Below are positions 1 to 60,628 of a stretch of 64,000 nucleotides of DNA, one piece after another (the first letter of the stretch is position 1; the number at the start of each line of letters is the position of its first letter). A model generated the notes under the pieces. It ran no database searches. It was given only the letters and a program-made list of their open reading frames with translations, and had not been told where the DNA came from. Source of the DNA: Diplonema papillatum (taxonomy: Eukaryota > Euglenozoa > Diplonemea > Diplonemida > Diplonemidae); contig JAPJBO010000737.1 of the NCBI GenBank assembly GCA_030068145.1, positions 1 to 64,000 of the forward strand. The letters are read 5' to 3'. The translations under genes and the position numbers were made by a program.

Positions 1-1530
1 ACTATCACATAAGGTCAATCCAAATCAGAAAATAACGCAGAGGATCACAAAACAACGCAAAATGCAGGATTCCTTCAAACCTGGCTACCCTGCTGTACAT
101 GTTCACCGACGGGCTCATGCGACGGGCCCGTCGCGTCACAGTTTTTGAGCCGAGTTGTCCTCAGACATCGAGGAACTTTTGGCTTTTCGTTGCTGCGCAG
201 TTTGCTGCAGCTGCTTCCGCGCCAGGGGACTTCTGCAGTGAGCGGCAACTCGTGCGGGACATGTTCGGTGATGAACCGGCGCGAGATCTCGATGTGATGA
301 AAGGGGCGAATAACTTGTTGCATGCTATGGCGTACAACAACGACAATTGTGCGACAGAGCGTAGCCTCACCTGGGTTGACGAAAAAGTGTCCCTGGCAGT
401 TATCCCCAAAGGCGAAGAAAAGACTTCGAGACGAGGGCAAAGAAGCAGGCGCCAAAAGACAGAAGTCGCCGGCCACTCAGCAGACGAGCAAAGGAACCAG
501 CATCCGCAAGTAGCAGATACCGTAAACAGAAATAAGTTGGACCGGACAAAACGCCAACTCACCTATTTTGGGCTCTCGCGGTCCAACTTTTTTCGGGGGG
601 CCTGTGTACTTAGTGAAATCTCGCGGCTGGCCACTGAACAGCACTCGCTTCACCTCCGTAGTTTGATATCGTCGCGCATGAGCCCGCCACCGGTGTTCTA
701 GAACACTGCGCGGCACTGCGTACCCCGCCGTGTCCCATCAAGCACCAACCATTGGTAGCCATGGCCCTGTGGTAGGTAATCACAAGCGAAAGGATGCTTG
801 ATCGCGATCGGTTGTGGTTGTCGTGCCGAGGGCCCATTGCTTTGGTAGAGCAAACGCAAAAATGCAGAGTGTAAACGAGGTGGATCAAGGTTGGCTGACA
901 GTGAAGGAAAAAGTATGAGCCCTGCTTCTTTGTCACCGCGCCGTTTCCTGCCACGGCTTGTTCGAGTGCTTCGCATCTCTCGCGTTCGACTACCCATTTG
1001 GCAAGGGACATTTCTTATTTCACCTGATGCCCCTCGGCCCAACCCCGACTAAGTGGAAACGTGCCCGGGCGGAAATAAGGTGGGCCGGACAAAATGGTCC
1101 AATTGGTTTGTCGTCGTGCGGTCCAACTTTTGTCCGGTCCGATGCTAGCATCAAGTCTTTTTGGGTGAAAGGGGCTAAAGGGAGAGTAAACCTGGCAAAA
1201 TCTGTCCCGAACACTAAACTACGACTTTTCCTCCGAGTACTAATTTCGGGTTGGATTGAACCAGCCGTCAGCCTGCCAGCCAGAACGCCTCCGATTGCGT
1301 CACTATCGGCGCAGTCATCCTCTGTGACAGGGCCGCGGTTCGCGCCGCGCCTCCGACGTAGCGACTTCCGCCCGCCGTAGTCGCGCTTTCTTCGTGTTTA
1401 CTCTGTCGTCCCCTCCTGTGTCTTCACATTAAACTGCATCTTCCCTCATCCACCGAAAGAAGAAAATCCGCGATCTGTCCTGCTAGTCAAGAATTCGAGA
1501 GTTTCGTGCCGCTTATCTTTCCCCTTCCTC
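1..1530. other. Gene-free left edge
   Basis: I see no supported gene here. Both strands have only short ORFs without a recognisable domain or a convincing exon. The first 60 bases and 3.6-3.8 kb share a loose ATCAC/AAATCA-rich texture. A pyrimidine-rich stretch near 1510-1535 could be a 5' untranslated region or a polypyrimidine tract for the possible exon that follows. Confidence 0.4.
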
Positions 1531-1534
1531 TTTG

Positions 1535-1705
1535 TCTGACTTGCACTACTACTTCGCCAAGGCCGATGTGCCCGAAGGAATGCGAAGAGTTCAGCCTTAC
1601 ATAGACGCCCCAGTCATGTCGTCTCGTGCCCAGAAAGTTGCGTTTCTGCACGCCCACTATGCCTGCTGCGTGAGCAGTCTACACTTCTTGCAACGTCACA
1701 ACGTG
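1535..1705 (+). CDS. Possible plus-strand exon, function unknown
   Basis: An open frame of about 57 codons ends exactly before a GTAAGC donor-like site at 1706. It is rich in His, Tyr and Cys towards its end and has in-frame Met codons near 1580 and 1616. No family is recognised. The frame has no ATG at its left end, and a downstream acceptor would fall inside the minus-strand ORF at 1.7-2.7 kb, which argues against it. It may be chance; kept because of the good donor and non-repetitive composition. Confidence 0.2.
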
Positions 1706-2696
1706 GTAAGCCACAACTGACAGGTGATAGATACAGTAGATGAGGCTCAAAACGTGGTTCACGCGGTCTGCAAAAAACTTTTGCAGCGCAGGCACAGACT
1801 TACCTCGTGCGCCACTGACAGCAATCCACGACAAAGCCCATTCAAACATGCGCTTGTCCCCGACAACACGTGTGAGCGCGTAGGCTGCAGCCGTCAGTCC
1901 ACCGAACCGAATGCCGCTCACTTTCTCCCAGAACAAGGAACCTTGCAGAACAACGGACTTTTTACGCAGCCACTGCGTGAAAGCCGCGTTGTCGTGGATG
2001 TAGCCGGACAGCTGCTTTAGCTTTGAAGCGAAGTCGCTGTCGCTGCCCCTGTCTACCTCCGTGCCGCACCCCAGCCCTGTAGAGCGGGTACGACATGCTT
2101 TTGCCGGTCTTGGCATCGGTCCAAGTGGCAGTACTGCGGTACCCGCTTTTGCTCCAGCTCAGAGGAGTGGCAGCTGTTTCCAGTCCAAGAACTGCCGTTC
2201 CGACAAGGCGGGAGAAGAGCGCGTCTCGCAGGTACAGCTCTCGCAGGCAGAGAGCTCGTGCGGTGTGCCGCGTCAGGCTTTGTATTCTTATCGGGATACC
2301 TTCGTCTGCGCATTCCTGCGCCAAATAATCTGCTGCGCGTACAGCTTGTCGTGTGCTGAGGGGACATGCACTGAGGAGACTCCGACCGAGAACGTCTGCA
2401 GGAAAGGGGACAACGGGAATCGTAGATGCTGAAGCTGCACGAGAGTGCACAGGGTCCTGCAATACGACGCGGCTGAAGCAGGAGAAGGGAATACCGGATC
2501 CCAACAATACCCACTCGTCACCGTTGTAACCGAATACAGTCCCAGAAGAAAGCTCCATCCCCAACAATTCGAGCTTGGAGAACAGATCTGCCAAATCCAT
2601 GCACCCCACACTCATCTGGATACCGTTGCACGTGACCGCGACGTGCGTAACCGGTTCGGCAGGGGGCGCGACAGCTGCGACTTTGGCTGGGTCCAT
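1679..2696 (-). CDS. Unrecognised protein, interrupted by one apparent frameshift
   Basis: The ORF starts at the ATG at 2694-2696 (MDPAKVAAVAPP...) and reads for about 205 residues of normal-looking globular sequence. Near 2075-2090 sensible coding moves to the next frame, which stays open to 1679 and carries an aromatic- and Ala-rich helical stretch (SDFASKLKQLSGYIHDNAAF, later MFEWALSWIAVSGARG). A single-base indel in the G-rich segment around the switch explains this; an intron does not fit the spacing. Seen: two abutting frames with protein-like composition. Inferred: one gene of about 330 residues, perhaps spliced further downstream, since the last 20 residues look less convincing. I recognise no domain. 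It lies downstream of the pyrophosphatase gene on the same strand, with no evident functional link. Confidence 0.45.
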
Positions 2697-10100: not shown

Positions 10101-13100
10101 TGGTGGGCGTAAGCGTTCAACAAAAACGACCCACTTTGTAGTTGTACTGTTTCTCCCCCTCTAGCCTCCTGAAGTAAGCACAAGGCAGCCCCTCGAGTAT
10201 TTCCGACGACAACTAGTGTCAGACAAAGCCTACCCGAAAGCAGTTGGTTCTTTAGGCAGGCTTTATCCTACCGGCGGATGTTGTTTGGGTTAGCGATTGT
10301 TTCTTTTTCTTCTTCACTTGTTCGAGCTGCGGAATAGCCCTTCTTTTTTTTTTTTTTTGGAAGGAGCAGGGGTTTTTCTAATCCCCGAAATTCTGAAAAA
10401 TCCCGGTTAAAAAATCTTTGATATGTCCAGAAAATTCTTTTATTTCTGGACGGCACTTTTCATACTGGCCTCGCAAGCAAAAATCCGTTCTATAAAAAAG
10501 CCTTTATTTCCTGCCAGGACTATAATTTTTTTTATTCCTAGGTGGTGTGATCCCACCCTGGAGTTTTTCCGGGTTTGTGCCGGGTTTGTGCCGGGTTTGT
10601 ACCGGGGGGGGGGTCCGGGTTTTTATTTTTGTCTCCCCAGCACCCGCTAGCACCCTTGGTCGTGGAGATTTCAGGCTTCGCGGTGGAGTTTGCCACGTTT
10701 CATGATCGTCTGGTGCTCGTGGGGGTTTGTCCCGCACTTTGCGGTCCCTCGCCCTTCTGTCATAATCAGCCTACGGGCTTCGGTATCGTGTATATTTTGT
10801 CGGTTTGAGGCCCCTTCCGTAGCTTGGAAAACGGAAAGAGAAGCAAGCATCTCCATCGATTCAGAACGAGGGACAGAAGTTCCCACGCTCAACCCGCTCG
10901 GCTGTGCCATCGGAACAGAAGTCGGCAACAAGCGGTTCGGACGGGCGGGTTCCCCGCCCATCAAGTACAACCGGTTTTCCCTCTCGCCTAGAAGGTGCTG
11001 TCGGATGGCTTAAGATGGCCTGAGCAGACTGCTACCTTTGGTTCCGCATCCTTTCAAACTGTGGCTGACCAAGCCGCTGTTTGAGCTCTGCAGGGGTTTC
11101 GATGCACTCCAAAATGCGGGTACCAACAACCCCGGCAGCTGGGAGGAATGGCTACCGAGCATGGGTGCGTGGCGTTCGTGGACGCGCAACTGCATGCAAA
11201 CAAGCGTCACGCAATTAGCAGAGACAGGTCACCACTCGTTCTGCAGTGGAGTTAGCATTAGCTCAATGTGTCGGGAGCAGTAGTTGTCGACTGAAAAGTA
11301 CCGCGGATGCAGAACATCGATGCAGACGATGATGCCGCAAATGCAGCTTTCTGCGAGCAGGCAAGATGGCAAGCGAGAGAGCGTGCCGTACCCCAGGCAG
11401 GTCGCTCGAAAACGGCGACCCGAAATGGAAAATTCACCCCCAGGAACAATACCCAGCGGACTGGAAGCGCAGGCAGGCCCGGATGGAAGCATGAGGTGAA
11501 GCAGATGGGACAGAGGAGCGGAAAAACGGGGCCGCACCAGTGGCAGACCCGGACGTTGGGGTTAAACAATCGAAGAAGAAGTGTAAAGACGAGGAAACAC
11601 CGACTCGGGCACACCGGCCGAGAACAGCCAATCATGGAACCCAGGGCACAATGGAGGCTACGGCGCGGTGGTGAAGTAACGAAGCTCGCTCGCTAGCATC
11701 CGGCAAGAGCCAGCATGACACATGAATTTGGAATTGATGCTTCATTTGGAAACAGCGAGGGCAGAGGGTTAATCTGCTTGTACTAGGCTCCTCGGTTCCC
11801 GTAGTATCGGGGGAGTTTGAGGCAATTGCTGGCTGGTGGTCGGTTGTAGTCCGTTGCGTCAAGCACAACCGGGCTTGCCCTCTGGAGGCTTTGGAAAATA
11901 GTGGTTCCTGTCTGTCAGAGATGTGCATTCAGCGCTGCAATGGCAAAGCATTCCAGGTACCTTCTGCGGTGGACCTACATATTAATTGGTGTTGGTTTGT
12001 ACTCGACAGGACCCTGGTGCCGTCGGTTTAGCTTGATTGCAGCGATCACCTGCCATAACCTGAAGGGGTAGTGCAAAATAAAAAATCGGACCCCCTTGAG
12101 TTTTTCCGGGTTTGTGCCGGGTTTGTGCCGGGTTTGCACCGGGCATATGGATCACACCACTAGGAATAAAAAAATTTATTTCCTGGACATTCTAATGCAC
12201 TAAACTGGCAAAGGTGATACACCCAGTGCACCCATGATGGTACTGGACCCCTACAAAAACATGTTTTGAGGCCGTTGCGCTACTCAAAATTCGTCGGAAC
12301 TACCTCAATGGCTCGCATTTGCTGTAAAACTCCTCAAAAACGTCGACAAAAATCAAACATATTACCAGGTTGCAGAGACTATCAAACCGGCCTCATTGCT
12401 AAGTCACCACCGCCACCCACACCGACAGTTGCTGCTCTGGTCGCATCCGCTGCAACTCAGACAGTAGCTGTGCCGGCAGCACCCTGTGCAACACAACCAT
12501 TTGCTGCACCGGTCACATTCTCTGCACTCAGACAGTTGCTTTGCCGGTTGCACCTTGTGCAACACACAGTTGCTGCACTGGTCGCAACCTCTGCAACTCA
12601 GGAGTTACCGTGTAGGTTGTACCCTGTGCAACACAGACATTTGCTGCACCAGTCGCCTACCATGCAGCTCAGGCAGCTGCTACACACCAGTCACGCACCA
12701 CGCTACGTCAACATCAAGATGGAGTAGAAAAATACCCATTCTGCACGTTAGCTTGTGAATCTGACCCCTTTACTAGATTATACCTTGGAAGTTTGTGCTC
12801 AGAAGTACAAAAGGTCTAATTTCCCTCTCACTTCGGCTCACGGTGTGTTTTTGCCTCGTCCCTCGGCTGCGCCTCGGGGCTCGGCGCCGTCCAGAAGACC
12901 CTGGAGTCGGCACAGCGGGTGCTCCAGGGCGCCTCCCGGGACTAGCCAACCCGCCTCTCTTTGACAGCCGTTTCCCGACGCGACAGAAACACCCCATGCC
13001 CGACGCCGGCTCTTTGCCTCGGCAGGTCGTGGGCCTGAAATCGCGGAGATTCAGGTTGCTGAGGCTTTTTCTACGGCTTCACCCACACTTCTACGACCCT

Positions 13101-16100
13101 CCCACCACAGTCTCCCTCGGATACCTTCCGCCAGAAACCAGAGGTCTCGTCCCGGCGGTCGGTGCTCCGAGGTCGGCGAAGCCGCTTGACGTCACGGCGG
13201 TACCTCCGATCGACCTCCGTGCGCTCCGGGATCTCGCCAGGCCCGGAGCCCGGTTGCACAGCCTGCTCGACCTCCTCACGGACGGACACGCTTTCCGACG
13301 GAAGCTACTGGGCACGCCGCTCGTGCCGGGTCGGAAGAGCGACGCGTTTGCGCACCATGCGGTGACGCTGGAGGGCGTCGGCTTTGTGGAACGCGTTCCC
13401 CGCTCGGAGCCGCTGAAGTGCGTACTGCCGGCGTTCGCTGTCGAGAAGGGGGAGCACCACTCCCGTGCCATCGTCGATGGCCGCCCGCTGAACGAGCTGA
13501 TGGAGCCTCCGCCGAAGTTCAGCCTCTTGCGTGTCGACGAGGTCATCGCCAAGATGATGTCGAAGTCGCACGCAGTCGTCGTCGACCTGAAGTCCTACTT
13601 CTTCCAGTTCCCAGTGGGACGGTCGACGTCGGCTTTCTTCGGGCTCCGGACCAGGAGGCCCGACGGGGGCGTGGCTCTGTATCGGTGGCGCCGGCTTACG
13701 ATGGGCTGGTCGTTCTCGCCCGTGATCGCACAGGACTCTGCGCTGGTCATCACGGAAACCGCCGGGGACGATAGGATAGTCTGGTACGACGACTGGGCCC
13801 TCGTCGGTGACTGTCCGGACGCGCTTCGCGCTGTGCGCGACCGAGTCCTGCGACGCGCCCGCAAGGTGTGCATGACGGTCAACGACGAGAAGTCCGTCCT
13901 CGAGCCCAGCTCGACGCCGGTTGTCTTGGGAGTCGAGTTCGACCTCGCGGCGAAGAGATACCGGCTGAAGCAAGAGTGGGCGAGGAAGGCGCACCTCCTC
14001 TTTTGCTCGGTCGATTCGACGCGGATGACTTTGCGTGGCGTTTGGAAGGTCGTCGGGACCGCTATTTGGGCGTGGACGGTGTGGGGCACGCCGCTCTGCA
14101 GGGTGAGCCCGGTGCTTGCGTGGATGGGAACCCTGGCGCACCAGGTCCTGACCGGTTCCCTGGGCTGGGAGTCGCTGGTCCGCGTGAGCGACGACGTTTT
14201 TCCGTTCCTTGCGGGAGTGAGACGGCGTCTGTCGGGCAACCGGTGGGTCGTTTTCGACTCGAAGCAACGGGACACCCTCGTGGAGGCGTGGTCCGACGCC
14301 AGCATGCAGGGATGGGCCTGGCTGGTGGGTTCCATGGCGATGTGGGGCCCGTGGAGGGATGTCCCGCAGCACATCTTCTTCGCTGAGCTGACGGCGGCGA
14401 AGTTCGCGATTGCGTACGCGGCTTCTCGCTCTCCGCTGTCGACGATCAGGATCTTCGTCGACAACTTGCCCGCCGTCAACTGCTTGAGGAACTGGAAGTC
14501 GAAGACCCAGCTCGGGAACTTCATCCTGTGCCAGGTCCGCGACGTCTTGGAGGAACACCAGTGCGTCCTCGAGACTGTATGGGTCCCGACTGCTGAGCAA
14601 CTGGCAGACGTCTGGACGCGGGACCCATACAGGCAGGGCATCCAGCCGCCCCGGACCCCGTTCTGCGTTGCATGAGGATCTTTACCTCGGAAGTTTTGTA
14701 TTTGCGCTCCTGATAGCGCTATTCTTTGCGAGACCCGGAGGCAGCGGGATCTCAGCTCTTTGAGTTTCACGTCCAGGGATTTTTATTCCACATTCTCGCT
14801 TTCATTTCACCAACCCTGTGACAATTATCATCTTCACCGTTTCTGCCAACGCGACCTTTTCCGAGTTTGAATAGAGCATCTATTTGGTATCGGAAAGTAG
14901 GTGCGAGATCAGGCAAACCTTGTGCGCTAGCTTCGTTTAACCGTGAATCTAATAATCAGGGCTTACCCCACATTCTCGCTTTCATTTCACCAACCCTGTG
15001 ACAATTATCATCTTCACCGTTTCTGCCAACGCGACCTTTTCCGAGAGAGAGAGAGAGAGAGTGCATACATGATGCCGGGGAACTCGGCAAACTGCCTGCG
15101 AACCTCTTCGACGACAGCCTGCGCAGTCACTCCGACTGAGGTCATCGTCCAGCCGGTGAACACAAAGATCATCGCCACACCGAGCAGACCTCCAATGAGT
15201 ACCTATGGTGTTGGATTGCGCGGATAGATCAAAGAACAACCGGCGATCTGCACCAAACTGGGTGTACGGTCAGGGGAAACAGTCGCCTTCTCCGCGCGCG
15301 TTGTAGCGTCTGTACAGAAGTTTGCCTCCCACGCATGTTTGGTGCTGTGTGGGAACTGGTAGCTGGTTTCTGGCTGCGGGCTGGCCATGGGACTTGCCCT
15401 GAATGTGCAGTCTCGAGGGCAAGACGGCGGTGCATCTCGTCTTGGACTGCCGGGGGGAAGATCTTAGCTTAATGTTTAGGCAGGACACACTGCCTCTCAT
15501 GCATGTTTGATGCTGGCATCAAGTCTTCTTCGTAGTAGTATAGTAGTATGTGTCGTCCTAATCTTTACAAACAAACGAGTGACTTAAGGTGGCCGCTTGA
15601 GCGGCGCCAATCCGAGAGAGCACACAGCAGCAGTGACGCGTCGGCAGTGTTTGCACTTCAGGATGGGTCGCACGAGGTCTTCTTCGAGGAAAACGGAAAC
15701 TGATAAAGGAAGTTAAAGTATGGCTAAAGAAAGTGGTGTCACCTGAGGGGGTAATAATGACGTCATCATCGCCTGCCGTTGCGTTCTCATGATAACCAAC
15801 TACATAAAAGGTCTTACGGGATAAGTCGGCAGCCGCTGCTTAACGATAAGTGCATGCTGATCCGTGTGGTCCGTGTACTAAAAAGTTCCCAGTGCTTAAC
15901 GGCTCTCGAAAGGTGGAAACGAGACTCGGACATTGAATCAGACTCGACAGATCACCTAGCCCCGTTTACACCGCAAGTACTCAGAGTACATTATAGAAAG
16001 AGTAGCGTTGGCACCCTTACAGGTTCGTTCCCTCGTAGCTCGCCGGGAACGGGCGCTCCAGTGAAACTAGGTATGTTACCGTTTCAGGTTCGGGTTTCGG

Positions 16101-19100: not shown

Positions 19101-22100
19101 CTGTACTGCCTCCGACTCAAGCTTTGCAAGCCGCGGCTGACCGTCACGTTCTTTTTCTCTTCTTCTTCTTCTTCCCCCGCCCGCCCTTTTTTTCGGGTAA
19201 ACAGTAAACTTGGGAGACGGCCCAAGTTTGCTATTCCCTGCGCAACTGGCCTCCCCAAGTACTCCTACAGAGCAGGTGCTTGTACAAAATACTCGACGTA
19301 GCTGCTTTGACTCCGAATGGAAGGGACAATCGGATTTGTTCTTTCGCTTACACCACCGTGTGTTGTTATCTCACTCAGGACTTTGACCTGTTGTGTTTGT
19401 GTGATTTGTCGTGTTGGGGAGACCCGCGTGACCTCACGTCCGTTCAACACGTGGTTCGGTAGTTACAGCACTTGGGTTCCCTTCGGTTCTTTGTCTGGCA
19501 GCATCGTCGAGCATTTCCTTCGAAGCTGGCGTTTATAGCGTTATTTGTGGATTAGAACGTCGGTATTTGAAAGTCTCCGGTTGACGGTTTATGTAAAACA
19601 AATCAGCCGGGGGGAAATGTTCCTTGGGTTTGAAGAGCGCGTGGTGCTGCACCACTGAGGCCAGGTTATTTAACCGCGGATTTAGTGAAGGATTGTTCAG
19701 GAAACGGTCGCGAGCGAAACCCGACCAGGTAACGACCATTTCACTGTCTTCTTCGTTTTGTGATGCGAACATCACGAGGTGCTGTCCGAAGACACCGCCC
19801 ACGTGAGCACTGTTAAGCATTGAGTTCTTTTAAGTACATGAACCACATGGATTAGCATGCACTAAGTTAAGCAGCGGTTGCCAGATACTCCCGTAGCACC
19901 TATTCACGGGTTTGCAGGGGTAAAAGGAAGCCCGGGTTGGGAGGGTGGTGGGTTTGGTGCGTAGTATTCTTCTTTTTTTGTTCTTTCTCGGTTCTGGTGG
20001 TGCTGCTCCTTCCTTCTCGTCCTGTGTTGGGTTACGACTTTTTTTGTTCTTTATCGGTTCTGAGCATTTCGGGGGGAAAATCTTAGTTTCGTGTTTAGGC
20101 GCTTGCCTCTCATGTGTTTGATGCTAGCATCAAGTCTTCTTCGCAGAATGCAGAGTCTTATTTTCTGTTCTTTTCTTTCTTTCGTTGTCGACAACTTCTT
20201 TTTTCTCCTTCTACTTTCTTTACCATGGTTTTTTTGGACTTTCTGGTGCCGTAGGGGGGGGAGGCTAGCATACGAAGAGGCCCGACGTCACCGCGCTGGC
20301 AGGGAAGGCGGATTCACCCAAGTAGTAGGCGGCAGCCAGGTTGCAAGAGACTACGATGGCTGGAGGGCCGGTCGACTCAAATCCCACAGCCAGCCCTTGG
20401 ATCACGTTGGTGCCGTGTCCCGAGAGACTCGCGGCGGCGATGGCACGAACAGGGGGGTACGCGTAATCCGTGTAGTACTGGCAGACGAACAGCAGCACGA
20501 AAGACGTCAGAATACCGATCATGCCGCACATCCAGAAGCTGAACCACGCGGAGGGAGCAGACTCTGTGTACAGCATCACGCGGCACGTGCCCGTGAAGAA
20601 CCCGATAGCCAGCACGGCTGTAACGGCGTATCTGTGACGAATGTGCAAATTTGTACGTATATCAGGACCATATCTACACCATACTCGTGGGTGTGTACAC
20701 ACAACCCACTATCCACTAGCACCTTCTTGGTATCGTGGTGGAGTTTTTCGAACCACGGGATTGTTTCTGGTTCTTTACCCCCTTTCTCTTCGAGCTGCAT
20801 CCAATTGCCTGGATCGGTCTACACGGCTACGCGCGAAGGCGATGATGCGAACGAGCAAGAGACTGACTGATAGTGTTTAGGACTCAAACCAGACTGGACC
20901 GAGGAAATACTCGAGGGCTGTCTTGTGCTCATTTCGAAGGAGGCTAGAGGGAAACAATACAACTACAACGTGGGTCTTTTTTGTTGAACGCTTACGCCTG
21001 CCACTAAACCCAGATTCACCTGTGTTTCGTGGGTGGCTACAGCACATTTACCTCCTTCGATCTTTCGCAACTGGCAGTCTCCTTAAGCATTTCCTACAAA
21101 GCAGGTGCTTATACAACGAAAAAGTGTGCAACCCTCTTTCATCGCCGACAGCGGGCTCGAGTCTGTGTCTCGGTGGTGCACAAAGTGGACGCCGACCGAC
21201 GAGACGAGGATGTCGAATGCGTGGACCACCAGCGGGAAGAACACGAAGCGCTCGGCCTCCCCTTCCGTGAGCTTCACCTCGCTGGCGAGGGCGCCTGCGA
21301 GGATCATCGTGCCCAGGATCTCGGCCGCGATTGACTCGAAAACGTCGGCCATGGACCCGGCGCAGTCGCCGACGTTGTCTCCCACCAGGTCCGCGATGAC
21401 CGCCGGGTTTCGAGCGTCGTCTTCGGGGATGTTCTTGTCGATCTTCCCGACCATGTCGGCTCCCACGTCCGCCGCCTTGGTGTAGATCCCGCCTGCGACC
21501 TGCATGAACAGCGCCACGAACGACGCGCCGAACCCATATCCGGTCAGCAGCAGCGGCACCCGCGTCGTGCCGGCACCGCCACCAACACCGGCAAGGAACC
21601 GGAATATCGCGTACAGCAGGGCCAGGCCCATGACGCAAGTGCACGCACTGATGATCGCGCTGAAGGCGCCGCCTTTGAAGGAGATGGCGAGGGCGCCTGA
21701 CACGGAGTGGTGCACGGCTTGCGTGGCGACCCTGAGGTTTGCCCGGACGGAGATCCAGACGCCGACGAACCCGGCGAGGGCTGAGCAGAAGGCGCCGATG
21801 GAGAAGCTGACGAGCGTCATGCACGCCAGGGACACAGGACCGACGGAAACGCCGGGGGACGAGCCTCGGAAGGAGTAGCCGAAGAACAGGGCGGCGGCCA
21901 CGACTGCGGCCATGCGGGCAATCGCGCCGTATTGCACGGACAAGAACCCCTCCGCGGCCTCTCGGATCGCGGCCGCGATGCTTTGCATGCCGGCGTCGGC
22001 CGACGTCTGCGGTGAGGATGTCGCGGGCAAGCCACGCGCTGAACCCGAGGCCGCACGTGCACGCGAGGTGCACGAAGCACAGGTACACCCCGGCGTCCCA

Positions 22101-29729: not shown

Positions 29730-38930
<9,201 letters not shown>

Positions 38931-45318: not shown

Positions 45319-47529
45319 TCACGGAACTCTGGTTGAGTCGCTTTCGCTTCCACTTCCACTGAAACTGCCACTGGTTGCGTCGCTTCCACTTCCACTGAAA
45401 CTTCCGTTGGTTGCGCCGCTTCCACTTCCCCTGAAACTGCCGCTGGTTGCGTCGCTTTCACCTACACTGAAACTGCCACTGGCTGCGTCGCTTCCACTTC
45501 CACTGAAACTTCCGCTGGTTGCGTCGCTTCCACTTCCACTGAAACTGCCGCTGGTTGCGTCGCTTTCACTTACACTGAAACTGCGACTTGTTGCGTCGCT
45601 TCCATTTCCGCTGGAGCTGCCACTGTTTGAGTCGATTTCACTTCCACTGAAACTGCCGCTGGTTGCGTCGCTTCCACTTCCACTGAAACTACCGCTGGCT
45701 GCGTCGCTTCCATTTCCGCTGGAGCTGCCACTGTTTGAGTCGATTCCACTTCCACTGAAACTACCGCTGGCTGCGTCGCTTCCACTTCCACTGAAACTGC
45801 CACTGGTTGCGTCGCTTCCACTTCCACTGAAACTGCCGCTGGTTGCGTCGCTTCCATTTCCGCTGGAGCTGCCACTGTTTGAGTCGATTTCACTTCCACT
45901 GAAACTGCCGCTGGTTGCGTCGCTTCCACTTCCACTGAAACTACCGCTGGCTGCGTCGCTTCCATTTCCGCTGGAGCTGCCACTGTTTGAGTCGATTTCA
46001 CTTCCACTGAAACTGCCGCTGGTTGCGTCGCTTCCACTTCCACTGAAACTACCGCTGGCTGCGTCGCTTCCATTTCCGCTGGAGCTGCCACTGTTTGAGT
46101 CGATTTCACTTCCACTGAAACTGCCGCTGGTTGCGTCGCTTCCACTTCCACTGAAACTACCGCTGGCTGCGTCGCTTCCATTTCCGCTGGAGCTGCCACT
46201 GTTTGAGTCGATTTCACTTCCACTGAAACTGCCGCTGGTTGCGTCGCTTCCACTTCCACTGAAACTACCGCTGGTTGCGTCGCTTCCATTTCCGCTGGAG
46301 CTGCCACTGTTTGAGTCGATTCCACTTCCACTGAAACTACCGCTGGCTGCGTCGCTTCCACTTCCACTGAAACTGCCGCTGGTTGCGTCGCTTCCACTTC
46401 CACTGAGACTGCCGCTGGCTGCGTCGCTTCCACTTCCGCTGGAGCTGCCACTGTTTGAGTCGATTCCACTTCCACTGACACTGCCGCTGGTTGCGTCGCT
46501 TCCACTTCCACTGAAACTACCGCTGGCTGCGTCGCTTCCATTTCCGCTGGAGCTGCCACTGTTTGAGTCGATTTCACTTCCACTGAAACTGCCGCTGGTT
46601 GCGTCGCTTCCACTTCCACTGAAACTACCGCTGGTTGCGTCGCTTCCATTTCCGCTGGAGCTGCCACTGTTTGAGTCGATTCCACTTCCACTGAAACTAC
46701 CGCTGGCTGCGTCGCTTCCACTTCCACTGAAACTGCCACTGGTTGCGTCGCTTCCACTTCCACTGAAACTGCCGCTGGTTGCGTCGCTTCCACTTCCACT
46801 GAAACTGCGACTTGTTGCGTCGCTTCCATTTCCGCTGGAGCTGCCACTGTTTGAGTCGATTTCACTTCCACTGAAACTGCCGCTGGTTGCGTCGCTTCCA
46901 CTTCCACTGAAACTACCGCTGGCTGCGTCGCTTCCACTTCCGCTGGAGCTGCCACTGTTTGAGTCGATTCCACTTCCACTGACACTGCCGCTGGCTGCGT
47001 CGCTTCCACTTCCACTGAGACTGCCACTGTTTGCGTCGCTTCCACTTCCATTGAAGCTGCCGCTGTTTGAGTCGGTTCCACTTCCGCTGAAACTGCCGCT
47101 GTTTGAGTCGCTTCCTTCGTCACCGTTTGAGCAGGGATACTCGTAAACAACGACGGGAAATTCCGTCGCATTTCGTTCCGACGGTCGCGCGAGGGTGCGC
47201 AGGATATCTGCGGGGAGCTCCACGAAGAAGGCAGACGACGCTTCCTCATCATACGCTACCTCCGATATGTGCATAGAAAAGCCGTAATTGCGACATTCGC
47301 TGCCATCGACGCACAAGATGCCGTAGCAGGCGTTGCAGGAGACGGGTGTTTCTGTCTCGTTCCTAACGATGACTCGCACCATGATCACATCGGCATGTGT
47401 TTGTGGACACGGCGGTTCCGTTGCAACGAACGGTGCTTCGAACGAGGTTCCAGCAACGCCTTCTACCATTCCCGGCGGCAGAAAAGCCCCGAGAGCTGCT
47501 GCGGACGCGAGAAACAGTGCCGCAGCCAT
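45319..47529 (-). CDS. Secreted Ser-Gly-rich protein, paralogue 1
   Basis: The 736-residue ORF begins MAAALFLASAAALGAFLPP, a typical signal peptide. A domain of about 120 residues follows with TSFEAPFVATEPPCP, VRVIVRNETETPVSCNAC, ISEVAYDEEASSAFFVELPA and a final Cys. The remaining 580 residues are SGSGSDA-SGSFSG repeats from 36-bp units. I recognise no named family; the domain looks like an extracellular beta-rich fold with paired cysteines. It differs from paralogue 2 (57.0-60.6 kb) in having one domain copy and no transmembrane tail; it ends soon after the repeats (SDSTRVP). It is therefore either secreted or truncated. Repeat units are multiples of three, so other frames and the opposite strand stay open; the SG frame is preferred because it alone is joined to the signal peptide and domain. 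Confidence 0.7.
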   Translation of the reverse strand: MAAALFLASAAALGAFLPPGMVEGVAGTSFEAPFVATEPPCPQTHADVIMVRVIVRNETETPVSCNACYGILCVDGSECRNYGFSMHISEVAYDEEASSAFFVELPADILRTLARPSERNATEFPVVVYEYPCSNGDEGSDSNSGSFSGSGTDSNSGSFNGSGSDANSGSLSGSGSDAASGSVSGSGIDSNSGSSSGSGSDAASGSFSGSGSDATSGSFSGSEIDSNSGSSSGNGSDATSRSFSGSGSDATSGSFSGSGSDATSGSFSGSGSDAASGSFSGSGIDSNSGSSSGNGSDATSGSFSGSGSDATSGSFSGSEIDSNSGSSSGNGSDAASGSFSGSGSDATSGSVSGSGIDSNSGSSSGSGSDAASGSLSGSGSDATSGSFSGSGSDAASGSFSGSGIDSNSGSSSGNGSDATSGSFSGSGSDATSGSFSGSEIDSNSGSSSGNGSDAASGSFSGSGSDATSGSFSGSEIDSNSGSSSGNGSDAASGSFSGSGSDATSGSFSGSEIDSNSGSSSGNGSDAASGSFSGSGSDATSGSFSGSEIDSNSGSSSGNGSDATSGSFSGSGSDATSGSFSGSGSDAASGSFSGSGIDSNSGSSSGNGSDAASGSFSGSGSDATSGSFSGSEIDSNSGSSSGNGSDATSRSFSVSESDATSGSFSGSGSDATSGSFSGSGSDAASGSFSVGESDATSGSFRGSGSGATNGSFSGSGSDATSGSFSGSGSESDSTRVP

Positions 47530-47585: not shown

Positions 47586-50190
47586 TAAGTTAGCCTCAGA
47601 AGCTGGGTGGAAGAAAGCGGATGTGTAGCCACCGAAACGCGCTTGCAAATGCACTCCAGAAAGCGGGTGCGACGCCCGCTTACAGATCCAGCTTTAGATC
47701 CAGCTTTAGATCCAGCTTTAGGTCCAGCTTTAGATCCAGCTTTAGGTCCAGCTTTAGGTCCAGCTTTAGGTCTAGCTTTAGGTCCAGCTTTAGGTCCAGC
47801 TTTAGGTCCAGCTTTAGGTCCAGCTTTAGGTCCAGCTTTAGGTCCAGCTTTAGGTCCAGCTTTAGGTCCAGCTTTAGGTCCAGCTTTAGGTCCAGCTTTA
47901 GGTCCAGCTTTAGGTCCAGCTTTAGGTCCAGCTTTAGGTCCAGCTTTAGATCCAGCTTTAGGTCCAGCTTTAGATCCAGCTTTAGGTCCAGCTTTAGGTC
48001 CAGCTTTAGGTCCAGCTTTAGATCCAGCTTTAGATCCAGCTTTAGATCCAGCTTTAGGTCCAGCTTTAGGTCCAGCTTTAGATCCAGCTTTAGATCCAGC
48101 TTTAGGTCCAGCTTTAGGTCCAGCTTTAGATCCAGCTTTAGATCCAGCTTTAGGTCCAGCTTTAGGTCCAGCTTTAGGTCCAGCTTTAGATCCAGCTTTA
48201 GGTCCAGCTTTAGGTCCAGCTTTAGGTCCAGCTTTAGGTCCAGCTTTAGGTCCAGCTTTAGGTCCAGCTTTAGGTCCAGCTTTAGGTCCAGCTTTAGGTC
48301 CAGCTTTAGGTCCAGCTTTAGGTCCAGCTTTAGGTCCAGCTTTAGGTCCAGCTTTAGGTCCAGCTTTAGGTCCAGCTTTAGGTCCAGCTTTAGGTCCAGC
48401 TTTAGATCCAGCTTTAGGTCCAGCTTTAGGTCCAGCTTTAGGTCCAGCTTTAGGTCCAGCTTTAGGTCCAGCTTTAGGTCCAGCTTTAGGTCCAGCTTTA
48501 GGTCCAGCTTTAGGTCCAGCTTTAGGTCCAGCTTTAGGTCCAGCTTTAGGTCCAGCTTTAGGTCCAGCTTTAGGTCCAGCTTTAGGTCCAGCTTTAGGTC
48601 CAGCTTTAGGTCCAGCTTTAGGTCCAGCTTTAGGTCCAGCTTTAGGTCCAGCTTTAGGTCCAGCTTTAGGTCCAGCTTTAGGTCCAGCTTTAGGTCCAGC
48701 TTTAGGTCCAGCTTTAGGTCCAGCTTTAGGTCCAGCTTTAGGTCCAGCTTTAGGTCCAGCTTTAGGTCCAGCTTTAGGTCCAGCTTTAGATCCAGCTTTA
48801 GGTCCAGCTTTAGGTCCAGCTTTAGATCCAGCTTTAGATCCAGCTTTAGGTCCAGCTTTAGGTCCAGCTTTAGATCCAGCTTTAGGTCCAGCTTTAGGTC
48901 CAGCTTTAGGTCCAGCTTTAGATCCAGCTTTAGGTCCAGCTTTAGGTCCAGCTTTAGGTCCAGCTTTAGGTCCAGCTTTAGGTCCAGCTTTAGGTCCAGC
49001 TTTAGGTCCAGCTTTAGGTCCAGCTTTAGGTCCAGCTTTAGGTCCAGCTTTAGGTCCAGCTTTAGGTCCAGCTTTAGGTCCAGCTTTAGGTCCAGCTTTA
49101 GGTCCAGCTTTAGATCCAGCTTTAGGTCCAGCTTTAGATCCAGCTTTAGGTCCAGCTTTAGGTCCAGCTTTAGGTCCAGCTTTAGATCCAGCTTTAGATC
49201 CAGCTTTAGATCCAGCTTTAGGTCCAGCTTTAGGTCCAGCTTTAGATCCAGCTTTAGATCCAGCTTTAGGTCCAGCTTTAGGTCCAGCTTTAGATCCAGC
49301 TTTAGATCCAGCTTTAGGTCCAGCTTTAGGTCCAGCTTTAGATCCAGCTTTAGATCCAGCTTTAGGTCCAGCTTTAGGTCCAGCTTTAGGTCCAGCTTTA
49401 GATCCAGCTTTAGATCCAGCTTTAGGTCCAGCTTTAGGTCCAGCTTTAGATCCAGCTTTAGGTCCAGCTTTAGGTCCAGCTTTAGATCCAGCTTTAGGTC
49501 CAGCTTTAGGTCCAGCTTTAGGTCCAGCTTTAGGTCCAGCTTTAGGTCCAGCTTTAGATCCAGCTTTAGGTCCAGCTTTAGATCCAGCTTTAGGTCTAGC
49601 TTTAGGTCCAGCTTTAGGTCTAGCTTTAGGTCCAGCTTTAGATCCAGCTTTAGGTCCAGCTTTAGGTCTAGCTTTAGGTCCAGCTTTAGGTCCAGCTTTA
49701 GATCCAGCTTTAGGTCCAGCTTTAGGTCCAGCTTTAGGTCCAGCTTTAGGTCCAGCTTTAGGTCCAGCTTTAGGTCCAGCTTTAGGTCCAGCTTTAGGTC
49801 CAGCTTTAGGTCTAGCTTTAGGTCCAGCTTTAGGTCCAGCTTTAGGTCCAGCTTTAGGTCCAGCTTTAGGTCCAGCTTTAGGTCCAGCTTTAGGTCTAGC
49901 TTTAGGTCCAGCTTTAGGTCCAGCTTTAGGTCCAGCTTTAGGTCCAGCTTTAGGTCTAGCTTTAGGTCCAGCTTTAGGTCCAGCTTTAGGTCCAGCTTTA
50001 GGTCTAGCTTTAGCTTTAGGTCCAGCTTTAGGTCTAGCTTTAGGTCCAGCTTTAGGTCCAGCTTTAGGTCTAGCTTTAGGTCCAGCTTTAGGTCCAGCTT
50101 TAGGTCCAGCTTTAGGTCCAGCTTTAGGTCCAGCTTTAGGTCCAGCTTTAGGTCCTAGACTCGTGGTCGACCCACGGTGTCTTTGAATTC
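47586..50190. repeat. 12-bp satellite (about 205 copies) inside a CAGAAGCTGG element
   Basis: The unit is GGTCCAGCTTTA with GATCC and GGTCT variants, from about 47684 to 50150. On the left stand CCTCAGAAGCTGG and AAAGCGGGTGCGACGCCCGC, and on the right CGACCCACGGTGTC, matching the ends of the dispersed CACGGTGGAG/CAGAAGCTGG elements. One 6-bp slip occurs near 50010. Plus-strand ORFs of 859 (GPAL/DPAL) and 845 (RSSF) residues arise because the unit lacks stops in those frames; neither is called a gene. Confidence 0.95.
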
Positions 50191-53570: not shown

Positions 53571-54998
53571 AAACATCAAGGCGTGGCGCAGCTTGAGGGG
53601 GGGCAGGAGCAAGGACAAGGCCAGCGGCCTTGTCCATACAGAATGGTCCAACAACCATTACTGCGAGAGTGGGAGGAACAAGGTCAAAGTACGAATCAAT
53701 ATGTATCAGGGGTAATCTCCAGCCCGCCCACGTGAAAAAGCAGTTGAGCTACCGCTGCTTATCCTGTGACACGTTTTTCGGGTTTGCGGGTCTGATTACC
53801 TACTGTTCCTGTTGAGTTTGCTCGTAGCTCGCCAGGAATGGGCACCCAGAAACTGGGTATCATACCGTCTTAAGTTTGGGTTCAGAAAACTAGACTTTTC
53901 ATGCCACCTTCTTCACACGGGCGATGGCATCAGTTCGTTCGAACGACATGGATACGTTTGCTTATCTTCGGGAGAAATGTTAACGCGGAGGAGTCCAACC
54001 TCCGCGTTCTCAGAAATCTTGGAGCTAGCAGCTTTAGGCCAGTCCCTCCAGAAAAGTTGGCCCACATCAAAGTTTCAAAAAGCCAGTCCCTCCAGAAAAG
54101 TTATTCGGAGCTAGCAGCTTTTCGCGCGTATAGGTACACGCATTTTGGTTCTTGCCGCCTTGACTCGGGCTCTTGCCGGGTTGTGCAGGTTGTCCTGTGT
54201 TTGAGGTGTGAGAGTGCCTACCTTGATCCCCCTTGAGTAGGGAGCCGACATCCCGTGGACGGCACACATATCGGACTCCAGGGATCCCAAAGCGGTTCAC
54301 AGGCCCACCTGCCCACAGCTCTTGCCGGGTTTGTGCCTGGTTCTTCCCGGGTTTTGTTGTAGCGCACGCCGTGTTTCGGGTGTGTCTCTTCATCTCCAGC
54401 TTCGGAGGCTGGACTCCGCCGTGTGGGGTTGCTTTGGTTTCAGCGTTTTTTTTGGTTTGAGACCGATTGTTTTCCGGATGGCTTATTGTGCTTGGTCGAA
54501 GAATAAAACAAGACGCGGGTCTGTCGTGAAGCCTTGCGTTTTGGATCCGCGAACGCGTTTAGAGGGTGCTACGGATTGCGTGGGGTGATGGTCCTTCTGC
54601 TTCGCTAAATACAGGCGGTGACGCCCGCTGCTCTTTACGTAGATTCTGAAGACGGGACACCATATTATTACCAGTACCGGGGGTTGCCTTGTAGCCCGTA
54701 CCGGTCTGTTGTCCGCGTTTATATGTATTTTCTCGCAGTGTGGTGCTTGGGTTTCGCGGCACTTGCGGTGCTTCTTATTACCAGTACCGTGACCGAATGA
54801 ATACAAGACGCGAGATGGCTATGTTCTGCGGTGCGAAATGGAAGAAAGGAATTGGACACAGACCAACTGCCGTGTCCGGCCAACTAAGCCCTGCTTGCAG
54901 ACATCACCATTGCCAAGATAAGCAACAAACACACGCCCTCCATCATGAGCACAAACCCGCACACCTGGACAAGACCAAAACCAGAACAAGAAGTCCGC
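53571..54998. other. Gene-free stretch with element pieces
   Basis: It contains a GCCAGTCCCTCCAGAAAAGTT direct repeat (54.04 and 54.08 kb), a CTCCAGCTTCGGAGGCTGGA hairpin of the CAGAAGCTGG family (54.40 kb), a family K copy (54.68-54.78 kb) and the motif TATTACCAGTACCG twice (54.66 and 54.78 kb). No supported gene. Confidence 0.4.
54675..54775 (+). repeat. Dispersed element, family K (copy 2)
   Basis: Nearly identical to 43260-43368. It is bracketed by the direct repeat TATTACCAGTACCG, possibly its target-site duplication. Confidence 0.65.
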
Positions 54999-56419
54999 GA
55001 CATGGGAAGCGATGGGCATCCTACACTGCCCGACAAACATTCGACGCGACATGGGAAGCGATGGGCATCCTACACTGCCCTACAAACATTCGACGCGACA
55101 TGGGAAGCGATGGGCATCCCACACTGCCCGACAAACATTCGACGCGACATGGGAAGCGATGGGCATCCTACACTGCCCGACAAACATTCGACGCGACATG
55201 GGAAGCGATGGGCATCCTACACTGCCCGACAAACATTCGACGCGACATGGGAAGCGATGGGCATCCTACACTGCCCTACAAACATTCGACGCGACATGGG
55301 AAGCGATGGGCATCCTACACTGCCCGACAAACATTCGACGCGACATGGGAAGCGATGGGCATCCTACACTGCCCGACAAACATTCGACGCGACATGGGAA
55401 GCGATGGGCATCCTACACTGCCCTACAAACATTCGACGCGACATGGGAAGCGATGGGCATCCTACACTGCCCGACAAACATTCGACGCGACATGGGAAGC
55501 GATGGGCATCCCACACTGCCCGACAAACATTCGACGCGACATGGGAAGCGATGGGCATCCCACACTGCCCGACAAACATTCGACGCGACATGGGAAGCGA
55601 TGGGCATCCTACACTGCCCGACAAACATTCGACGCGACATGGGAAGCGATGGGCATCCCACACTGCCCGACAAACATTCGACGCGACATGGGAAGCGATG
55701 GGCATCCTACACTGCCCGACAAACATTCGACGCGACATGGGAAGCGATGGGCATCCTACACTGCCCGACAAACATTCGACGCGACATGGGAAGCGATGGG
55801 CATCCTACACTGCCCGACAAACATTCGACGCGACATGGGAAGCGATGGGCATCCCACACTGCCCGACAAACATTCGACGCGACATGGGAAGCGATGGGCA
55901 TCCTACACTGCCCGACAAACATTCGACGCGACATGGGAAGCGATGGGCATCCTACACTGCCCGACAAACATTCGACGCGACATGGGAAGCGATGGGCATC
56001 CCACACTGCCCGACAAACATTCGACGCGACATGGGAAGCGATGGGCATCCTACACTGCCCGACAAACATTCGACGCGACATGGGAAGCGATGGGCATCCT
56101 ACACTGCCCGACAAACATTCGACGCGACATGGGAAGCGATGGGCATCCTACACTGCCCGACAAACATTCGACGCGACATGGGAAGCGATGGGCATCCTAC
56201 ACTGCCCTACAAACATTCGACGCGACATGGGAAGCGATGGGCATCCCACACTGCCCGACAAACATTCGACGCGACATGGGAAGCGATGGGCATCCTACAC
56301 TGCCCTACAAACATTCGATGCGACATGGGAAGCGATGGGCATCCCACACTGCCCGACAAACATTCGACGCGACATGGGAAGCGATGGGCATCCTACACTG
56401 CCCGACAAACATTCGACGC
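54999..56419. repeat. 49-bp satellite, exactly 29 copies
   Basis: The unit is GACATGGGAAGCGATGGGCA, TCCTACACTGCCCGACAAAC and ATTCGACGC. The span of 1421 bp is 29 x 49 with no length variation. Only two positions vary regularly (TCCTACAC/TCCCACAC and CCCGACA/CCCTACA). Because 49 is not a multiple of three and no frame has a stop, three plus-strand ORFs of 499-592 codons encode the same peptide cycle; none is called a gene. Confidence 0.97.
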
Positions 56420-56814
56420 GACACGCACAGGTTACGAGCGGTAGTGCGACACCATTTTTTTCGCGCTGCCAAACTCGGACATCCAGGCGGTACGAATGCA
56501 GACACCGCCACAACGTGAATAGTGTCGTCAGTTGGCGACATCATGGGCGGTGTCATGATGGGGCAAAAACGCATTGTCTTCATCCCACAGCAGCCGGGCG
56601 GCTCGCCGGATATAGTACGACTGGGATGGTATTCCAATCTACGTTCGGTAGGTCCATTTGTTCTATGGTAGGCACACGCGGCAAATCTTTTGTTTGTGCG
56701 TACGTGTGGAAACCCTGTTTTGAGTGATTTAGCACAGCACGCCCATCCGACCCTTTTTGATATCGACACGCAAGCTTTGTTTGTACCATAAGAAAGTTAT
56801 CCTACGGGGAGAGA

Positions 56815-56978: not shown

Positions 56979-59900
56979 TTACGTTGTGTGGTAACCTGAT
57001 ACGTGATTCGTTTGCGACAATAAAACCATGTCTTCTTCCCATCCATTGTCGGTCTGCACCGTAGCGCCTCTGCTTGACCAACGTGCGATTGCGTTTCTCT
57101 TCACGAAGGCAAACCCTACCACAGCAGCAGCGACAACAAGGCCCAAGGCGTAGCCTGTGTAAACCAGCGCTTGCCGCACTTTGTCATCATGCAGGTAGGT
57201 CGCGCTGCGTTGACTTCTTCCATCACCACCACTTCCGCTGAAACTGCCACTGTTTGAATCGCTTCCACTTCCGCTGAAACTGCCACTGTTCGAGTTGCTT
57301 CCACTTCCGCTGAAGCTGCCACTGTTTGAGTTGCTTCCACTTCCGCTGAAACTGCCACTGCTGGAGTCGCTTCCACTTCCGCTGAAGCTGCCGCTGTTGG
57401 AGTTGCTTCCACTTCCGCTGTTTGAGTTGCTTCCACTTTCGCTGTTTGAGTTGCTTCCACTTCCGCTGAAACTGCCACTGCTGGAGTCGCTTCCACTTCC
57501 GCTGAAGCTGCCGCTGTTGGAGTTGCTTCCACTTCCGCTGAAACTGCCACTGCTGGAGTCGCTTCCACTTCCGCTGAAGCTGCCGCTGTTGGAGTTGCTT
57601 CCACTTCCGCTGAAACTGCCACTGCTGGAGTCGCTTCCACTTCCGCTGAAGCTGCCGCTGTTGGAGTTGCTTCCACTTCCGCTGAAACTGCCACTGCTGG
57701 AGTCGCTTCCACTTCCGCTGAAGCTGCCGCTGTTGGAGTTGCTTCCACTTCCGCTGTTTGAGTTGCTTCCACTTTCGCTGTTTGAGTTGCTTCCACTTCC
57801 GCTGAAACTGCCACTGCTGGAGTCGCTTCCACTTCCGCTGAAGCTGCCGCTGTTGGAGTTGCTTCCACTTCCGCTGAAACTGCCACTGCTGGAGTCGCTT
57901 CCACTTCCGCTGAAGCTGCCGCTGTTGGAGTTGCTTCCACTTCCGCTGAAACTGCCACTGCTGGAGTCGCTTCCACTTCCGCTGAAGCTGCCGCTGTTGG
58001 AGTTGCTTCCACTTCCGCTGAAACTGCCACTGCTGGAGTCGCTTCCACTTCCGCTGAAGCTGCCGCTGTTGGAGTTGCTTCCACTTCCGCTGTTTGAGTT
58101 GCTTCCACTTCCGCTGAAACTGCCACTGCTGGAGTCGCTTCCACTTCCGCTGAAGCTGCCGCTGTTGGAGTTGCTTCCACTTCCGCTGAAACTGCCACTG
58201 CTGGAGTCGCTTCCACTTCCGCTGAAGCTGCCGCTGTTGGAGTTGCTTCCACTTCCGCTGAAACTGCCACTGCTGGAGTCGCTTCCACTTCCGCTGAAGC
58301 TGCCGCTGTTGGAGTTGCTTCCACTTCCGCTGTTTGAGTTGCTTCCACTTTCGCTGTTTGAGTTGCTTCCACTTCCGCTGAAACTGCCACTGCTGGAGTC
58401 GCTTCCACTTCCGCTGAAGCTGCCGCTGTTGGAGTTGCTTCCACTTCCGCTGAAACTGCCACTGCTGGAGTCGCTTCCACTTCCGCTGAAGCTGCCGCTG
58501 TTGGAGTTGCTTCCACTTCCGCTGAAACTGCCACTGCTGGAGTCGCTTCCACTTCCGCTGAAGCTGCCGCTGTTGGAGTTGCTTCCACTTCCGCTGTTTG
58601 AGTTGCTTCCACTTCCGCTGAAACTGCCACTGCTGGAGTCGCTTCCACTTCCGCTGAAGCTGCCGCTGTTGGAGTTGCTTCCACTTCCGCTGAAACTGCC
58701 ACTGCTGGAGTCGCTTCCACTTCCGCTGAAGCTGCCGCTGTTGGAGTTGCTTCCACTTCCGCTGAAACTGCCACTGCTGGAGTCGCTTCCACTTCCGCTG
58801 AAGCTGCCGCTGTTGGAGTTGCTTCCACTTCCGCTGTTTGAGTTGCTTCCACTTCCGCTGAAACTGCCACTGCTGGAGTCGCTTCCACTTCCGCTGAAGC
58901 TGCCGCTGTTGGAGTTGCTTTCACTTTCGCTGTTTGAGTTGCTTCCACTTCCGCTGAAACTGCCACTGCTGGAGTCGCTTCCACTTCCGCTGAAGCTGCC
59001 GCTGTTGGAGTTCCGCTGTTTGAGTTGCTTCCACTTCCGCTGAAACTGCCACTGCTGGAGTCGCTTCCACTTCCGCTGAAGCTGCCGCTGTTGGAGTTGC
59101 TTCCACTTCCGCTGTTTGAGTTGCTTCCACTTCCGCTGTTTGAGTTGCTTCCACTTCCGCTGAAACTGCCACTGCTGGAGTCGCTTCCACTTCCGCTGAA
59201 GCTGCCGCTGTTGGAGTTGCTTCCACTTCCGCTGTTTGAGTTGCTTCCACTTTCGCTGTTTGAGTTGCTTCCACTTCCGCTGAAACTGCCACTGCTGGAG
59301 TCGCTTCCACTTCCGCTGAAGCTGCCGCTGTTGGAGTCGCTTCCACTTCCGGTGAAACTGCCACTGCTGGAGTCGCTTCCACTTCCGCTGAAGCTGCCGC
59401 TGTTGGAGTTGCTTCCACTTCCGCTGAAACTGCCGCTGTTTGAGTGGCTTCCAATTTCGCTGTTTGAGTTGCTTCCACTTCCGCTGTAGCTTCCACTGTT
59501 TGAATCTCCACTTCCGCTGAAACTGCCGCTGTTGGAGTTGCTTTCTTCATCACTGTATGAGCAGGGAAGCTCGAACAGAGTGACGGCAGCTTTCGTCGAA
59601 GGTTCCGCCGATTCGTCAAGCGTGATGGCGCGCAGGAGATCTGCGTGAAGCTCCACGAAGAAGGCAGACGACGCTTTCTTATCGTACGCTACCTCCGATA
59701 TGCGGATAGTAATCCAGCCCTTGCCCACGATCACAAGGCCGTAGCAGGCGCTGCAGGAGAGGGGTGTTTCTGTTTCGTTCCTGACGATGACTCGCACCTT
59801 GAATGGATCGACATCTTTACTTGGACACGGCGGTTCCGTTGCAACGAACGGTGTTTCGAACGAGGTTTCAGCAATGCCGTTTACCCACCATTCCGGGCCA

Positions 59901-60628
59901 GTTCCGCTGGTTGAGTCGCTTCCACTTTCACTAAAACTGCCGCTGTTTGAGTTGCTTCCACTTCCGCTGTAGCTTCCACTGTTTGAATCTCCACTTCCGC
60001 TGAAACTGCTGCCGCTGAAGCTTCCCCTGTTTGAATCACTTCCACTTCCGCTGAAACTGCCGCTGTTTGAGTCGCTTCCGCTGATGCTTCCACTTCCGGT
60101 GTAGCTGCCGCTGTTTGAGTTGTTTCCACTTCCGCTGAAACTGCCACTGTTGGAGTCGCTTCCACTTCCGCTGAAGCTGCCACTGTTTGCGTTGCTTCCT
60201 CCGTCACTGTCTGAGCAAGAATTCTCGAACAGAACGACGGTAGCTTTCGTCGAAGGTCGTTCCGCCGATCCGTTAAACGTGAGGGTGCGCATGAGATCTG
60301 CGGGTAGCTCCAGGAAGAAGGAAGACGACGCTTGCGCATCGTACGCTACCTCAGATATGCGGATAGCAACGTAGTTGTGCGGTGACAGCTTTTTTGCGCA
60401 TTCACTTCCACGGACGCACATGATGCCGTAGCAGGCGTTGCAGGCGAGGGGTGCTTCTTCTTCGTTCCTAACGATGGCTCGCACCATGATCGGATCGGCA
60501 TGTGTTCGTGGACACGGCTGTTCCGCTGCAACGAACGGTGCTTCGAACGAGGTTCCAGCAATGCCGAGCATCCACGGTCTCGCCGAAAGACCGAGAGCTG
60601 CGGACGCGAGAAACAGTGCCGCAGCCAT
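56979..60628 (-). CDS. Ser-Gly-rich type I membrane protein, paralogue 2 (frame-disrupted)
   Basis: The start at 60628 (MAAALFLASAALGLS) matches paralogue 1; an in-frame Met at 60694 is less likely. Order seen: signal peptide, cysteine domain 1 (to about 60190), short SG linker, cysteine domain 2 (SFETPFVATEPPCP to about 59530), and a long SGSGSDSSSGSF linker. In the SG frame the far end reads SGSGGDGRSQRSATYLHDDK, then the helix ALVYTGYALGLVVAAAVVGF and a basic-start tail KRNAIARW ending at 56979. At 59010/59011 a 10-bp deletion (TTGCTTCCAC of the unit) shifts the frame. The ORF stays open as AEVEATPAVAVS repeats and stops near 57116 without the helix. Known principle: the linker resembles stalks of surface proteins. 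Inferred: a surface adhesin- or receptor-like protein; this copy needs checking. Confidence 0.72.

Follow-up and report, generated by a model that had tools for sequence, protein, structure and literature searches.

A gene in the genome assembly of Diplonema papillatum contains a long repeat that can be read in more than one frame, and it raises the question of whether its product alternates between a membrane-bound and a secreted form or whether a membrane-anchored protein has been broken by an accident in its repeat. We analyzed a window of 64,000 nucleotides, part of a 114,853-bp contig in a genome of 271 Mb and 2910 contigs, with the focus on a minus-strand gene running from 60628 to 56979. 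The initial annotation had described this gene as a surface-protein paralogue and had proposed that indels in its repeat would act as a slippage-driven switch between the two forms, should they arise in living cells.

The assembled open reading frame (57116..60628, minus strand) encodes 1170 amino acids from an ATG at 60628 and stops within the stretch that codes for a transmembrane (TM) helix in the Ser-Gly frame. Its product comprises, in order, an N-terminus, two domains with Ser-Gly linkers, and an Ala-Glu-Val repeat. All of the following parts lie on the minus strand. The N-terminus is a hydrophobic, signal-peptide-like segment of 25 residues (60554..60628), recognized by eye and by hydropathy (best 19-residue mean 1.37). 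It precedes the first copy of an orphan domain of approximately 110 residues, which has six cysteines in this copy, counted by eye (60215..60553). A first Ser-Gly linker (59905..60214) separates this copy from the second (59561..59890), which is followed by the main Ser-Gly minisatellite array (57229..59543), for which Tandem Repeats Finder reported periods of 36 and 336 bp. The array consists of blocks of 24, 36, 48, and 60 bp, plus single blocks of 33 and 50 bp, and perfect self-matches within it reach 501 bp. In the Ser-Gly frame, the gene ends with a TM helix, basic residues, and a short tail (56979..57228; stop codon 56979-56981). The protein of this frame is probably a type I surface protein, its location at the cell surface being predicted from this domain order.

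The single 50-bp block (58989..59038, minus strand; junction 59010-59013) is the site of the lesion. The two-unit combination of 24 and 36 bp is intact, at 60 bp, in four places (59134, 58856, 58616, and 58112), and the block at 59038 is this same combination minus one contiguous 10-bp stretch, confirming the loss that had been annotated there. The missing stretch has three equivalent placements, with a 2-bp microhomology, 59010/59011 being one of the three, and such a loss was found in this array block only.

The two endings also proved to be as the annotation had described them, one with a helix and tail and the other without a helix. Translation from 60628 follows the Ser-Gly frame to approximately 59011; past the lesion, the assembled frame is Ala-Glu-Val, which stops at 57116 and toward whose end the best 19-residue segment has a mean hydropathy of 0.53. 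The Ser-Gly frame remains open past the lesion for 676 codons, to the stop at 56979, and its end includes a 19-residue segment with a mean hydropathy of 2.11, followed by Lys-Arg.

The repeat is indeed open in several frames, the three minus-strand frames over 57229-59010 holding 1, 0, and 0 stops. In the Ser-Gly frame, the array past the lesion encodes 593 residues, drawn from just six amino acids (S, G, N, D, F, and E). A stop in the +1 frame can begin only in a codon for Ile, Leu, Met, or Val, and none of the 324 codon pairs formed from the six residues creates one. When a two-unit peptide was recoded at random, the +1 frame was open in all 20,000 of 20,000 recodings under each of two codon weightings, while for the +2 frame the open share was 6% with uniform codons and 23% with local codon use; the actual array past the lesion has one stop in the +2 frame. 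The second frame is thus open because of amino-acid composition and does not need selection. Selection for an open second frame was therefore rejected as unnecessary, +1 openness being no greater than chance. Since this openness is automatic, the open frames are no evidence of dual coding. A simple rule follows, in that a linker lacking Ile, Leu, Met, and Val never meets a +1 stop, and long open second frames are to be expected in Ser-Gly arrays.

The spacing of the units bears on the proposed switch. Measured with an exact 8-bp anchor, 95 of 96 spacings across the two genes of the family are divisible by three, the sole exception being the lesion; by region, these are 61 of 62 in the main array, 5 of 5 in the first linker, and 29 of 29 in the paralogue, where some spacings cover several units. 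Block lengths of 24, 36, 48, 60, and 33 bp are all divisible by three, so that gain or loss of a unit leaves the frame intact and slippage by whole units cannot toggle it. Toggling by slippage was rejected on these unit lengths.

In bacterial phase-variable contingency loci, repeat length gives on/off control, and loss of a unit shifts the frame. The switch proposed for the present locus follows the same principle, but the units here are multiples of three; gain or loss of a unit leaves the frame unshifted here, and the lone exception is not of unit length.

Arrays on the same contig that were taken as non-coding served for comparison. Off-register spacings numbered 1 among 157 anchors in a 12-bp array and 21 among 38 in a 229-bp array (86868-95485), with none in a 49-bp array (29 anchors) or a 22-bp array (9 anchors). 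The 229-bp array therefore shows that non-unit indels do occur in the arrays of this assembly.

To ask which frame the array had been using, we connected the 36-bp units past the lesion (41 units of 5 distinct kinds) by a minimum spanning tree, leaving out blocks of other lengths. In the Ser-Gly frame, 7 of the 10 unit changes were silent (expected fraction 0.185, binomial p 0.0005), against which the Ala-Glu-Val frame had 2 of 10 silent changes (expected 0.296, p 0.84). This set of changes is small and its members are non-independent, and the tree is one of possibly several. With the upstream units of the same gene included, 7 of 12 changes fell at third positions (p 0.07). The paralogue showed no Ser-Gly bias in its third-position changes (8 of 29, p 0.80), nor did both genes pooled (16 of 42, p 0.31). 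The unit variants past the lesion appear to fit a history of coding in the Ser-Gly frame, for which they provide modest support, and the open helix and tail past the lesion likewise point to Ser-Gly as the frame that was used.

The claim of a paralogue was correct, a second gene of the family lying at 45319..47529 on the minus strand. It encodes 736 amino acids with one copy of the domain and an in-frame Ser-Gly array of 36-bp units, which leads into a short tail and a stop. No TM helix was found in it, and its tail showed no similarity to that of the other gene. The paralogue may be a secreted or truncated member of the family, or one with a missed exon. Its domain is 67% identical to domain copy 1 of the other gene, to which copy 2 is 63% identical.

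A whole-genome search with the domain returned three real copies, all on this contig, plus two further rows no better than chance (E 1.0 and 4.9). A DNA search of the assembly revealed no second allele or haplotig among the best candidates scored, with 19 of 19 matches on this contig, and a search by unit pattern (up to 3 mismatches) revealed no second locus among the best candidates scored, with 34 of 34 matches on this contig. Searches of the assembly with the domain or the tail likewise gave no second allele among the best-scoring candidates; the tail search did find a fragment on another contig, C24. This fragment (C24:175455-175571) is a 117-bp copy, at 98% identity, of the piece coding for the TM helix and tail (window 57028-57144). 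It belongs to a stretch of approximately 186 bp that breaks up a dispersed repeat, whose copies at C737:83757-83935 and 107296-107460 are almost continuous. From its sequence context, the copy looks like a captured gene fragment.

We consider it highly probable that the locus carries a single recent accident of non-unit length in the stalk of a surface protein, be it real or an error of assembly, and not a reversible switch. The stalk would be encoded by a homogenized minisatellite in which length variation preserves the frame. A non-unit event, the 10-bp loss at a 2-bp microhomology in one block, would have broken that frame, after which the remaining stalk would be read as an Ala-Glu-Val repeat and the anchor would be lost. 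The loss could have arisen in assembly, or it could be genuine, as an allele or as a fixed mutation; the lesion is presumably recent and the new frame presumably without function. The clean absence of 10 bp in comparison with four intact blocks of the same array favors this reading. Against it, splicing could skip the lesion, and non-unit indels do occur in the contig's 229-bp array, so that a single event of this kind is by itself unremarkable. Within the accident reading, an error in the assembly or its consensus at a difficult repeat, with the gene itself intact, is a real possibility, although we lean against it. The site lies inside a 2.3-kb array of near-identical units, and the remaining coding array, including the stretch past the lesion, is in frame; however, collapse of a repeat would usually drop whole units, a 10-bp loss does not resemble a homopolymer slip, the contig contains no N, and the array of the paralogue has no off-frame spacing.

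The truncated product, with its Ala-Glu-Val tail, might instead be secreted, functional, and fixed. Since no TM helix is recognizable in the paralogue (45319-47529) either, an unanchored member may be tolerated, but this reading is improbable, as past the lesion the stretch coding for helix and tail has stayed open and most unit changes are silent in the Ser-Gly frame alone. The reversible switch by slippage, with a membrane-bound and a secreted form, draws on the three nearly stop-free minus-strand frames past the lesion and on the presence of a helix at the end of one frame and its absence from the other. With ordinary slippage keeping the frame, a single frame-changing spacing among 96, and composition accounting for the open frame, the switch is not supported and we regard it as very improbable. 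Equally doubtful is a switch by recombination, in which unequal exchange or gene conversion among near-identical blocks would lose or multiply the lesion block. If true, membrane anchoring would depend on how many lesion blocks there are, counted modulo three, and the state would be heritable, with no further non-unit slippage needed once the lesion exists. It is hardly credible that the cell bypasses the lesion by splicing out the block or by translational frameshifting, although the array is rich in GT and AG dinucleotides.

The accident reading has counterparts among known repeats. The gene has a coding repeat whose unit length is a multiple of three, and the assembly carries a single indel not divisible by three, past which the shifted frame is open through the remaining repeat, as in other frameshifted coding minisatellites. 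Among the closest cases are the repeat frameshifts of MUC1 and DSPP, which the present locus resembles in kind and not by homology.

According to the available text on ADTKD-MUC1 (PMC5843638), a small indel in one unit of the MUC1 VNTR opens another frame, and a premature stop shortly past the repeat removes the TM and cytoplasmic parts. The human disease allele has a 1-bp insertion within a stretch of 7 C in the 60-bp unit, and the frameshift product is reported to stay inside the cell (PMC5843638). The likeness lies in one indel in a coding repeat that opens another frame and removes the TM part; the proteins are unrelated, and the change seen in the present assembly is a 10-bp loss. In dentin phosphoprotein (DSPP), the accessible portions of two reports describe an acidic, Ser-rich repeat that is also open in the −1 frame, where its chemical character differs, and whose length varies within species (PMC10115861, PMC2803795). 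The shifted form of DSPP is longer and hydrophobic, whereas the shifted form here is shorter and composed of Ala, Glu, Val, and Thr; those portions mention no membrane anchor (PMC10115861, PMC2803795), in contrast to the TM helix of the present Ser-Gly frame.

The AGL surface proteins of arbuscular mycorrhizal fungi include putative orthologues that differ in frame, as far as the available text describes them (PMC8786786); these are Pro/Gly-rich fungal proteins with a C-terminal GPI-anchor signal in place of the TM helix seen here. Frameshifts in protein tandem repeats have also been surveyed in silico across 50 proteomes (FEBS J 2025; PMC12871928), and in the accessible part of that survey we noticed no locus resembling the Ser-Gly/Ala-Glu-Val case. 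If the loss is real, the locus would represent a MUC1-type event outside human disease, in which one small repeat indel alters the stalk of a surface protein and also how that protein is anchored.

The orphan domain may weakly resemble double-psi barrels of the expansin/barwin type in fold. With E allowed up to 1, two longer pieces had no Pfam match; with the limit set at 10 for the three copies, one of them gave a lone sub-threshold match, to MBG_3. DPBB_1 was absent from the matches of all three in the latter search, in which HMMER's filters can lose weak matches. Against solved chains, a single-sequence search found no match to the domain, and a profile search with the domain returned one row at E 1. 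Relatives elsewhere were sought by pattern, and none was confirmed among 25 viral-contig or 24 prokaryote-genome matches. The single record from a search of plasmids was a gene for an S-layer protein, with 13% of the query covered at 70% identity.

Another contig of the assembly, C76, carries an expansin-like open reading frame (940-2103, minus strand) that scores 24 bits against DPBB_1, for which the cut-off is 28.8, and has a weak Expansin_C match; its end is Thr-Pro rich, with a hydrophobic C-terminus. A short cysteine stretch seems similar in this gene and the orphan domain. Kinship between the two was rejected, as 33, 123, and 564 of 2000 shuffles did as well in local alignment for the three copies, and a profile comparison paired other residues at a probability of 0.3%.

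Other features of the window include further tandem arrays. A 12-bp unit repeated ~206 times (47687-50155) adjoins the paralogue and leaves two plus-strand frames open, of 845 amino acids each, and a 49-bp unit is repeated ~29 times at 54996-56423. As 49 is 1 modulo 3, the latter array cycles through all frames and yields mechanical open reading frames of ~500-590 amino acids. A 174-bp tandem array at 35027-37472 has ~14 copies with 98% matches. Scans of the window for tRNA genes and Rfam families found nothing. An open reading frame of 559 amino acids at 12996-14675 resembles, by eye, a retroelement reverse transcriptase, and another, of 301 amino acids (21083-21988), aligns with a portion of proton pyrophosphatases of solved structure (best E 5.6e-36).
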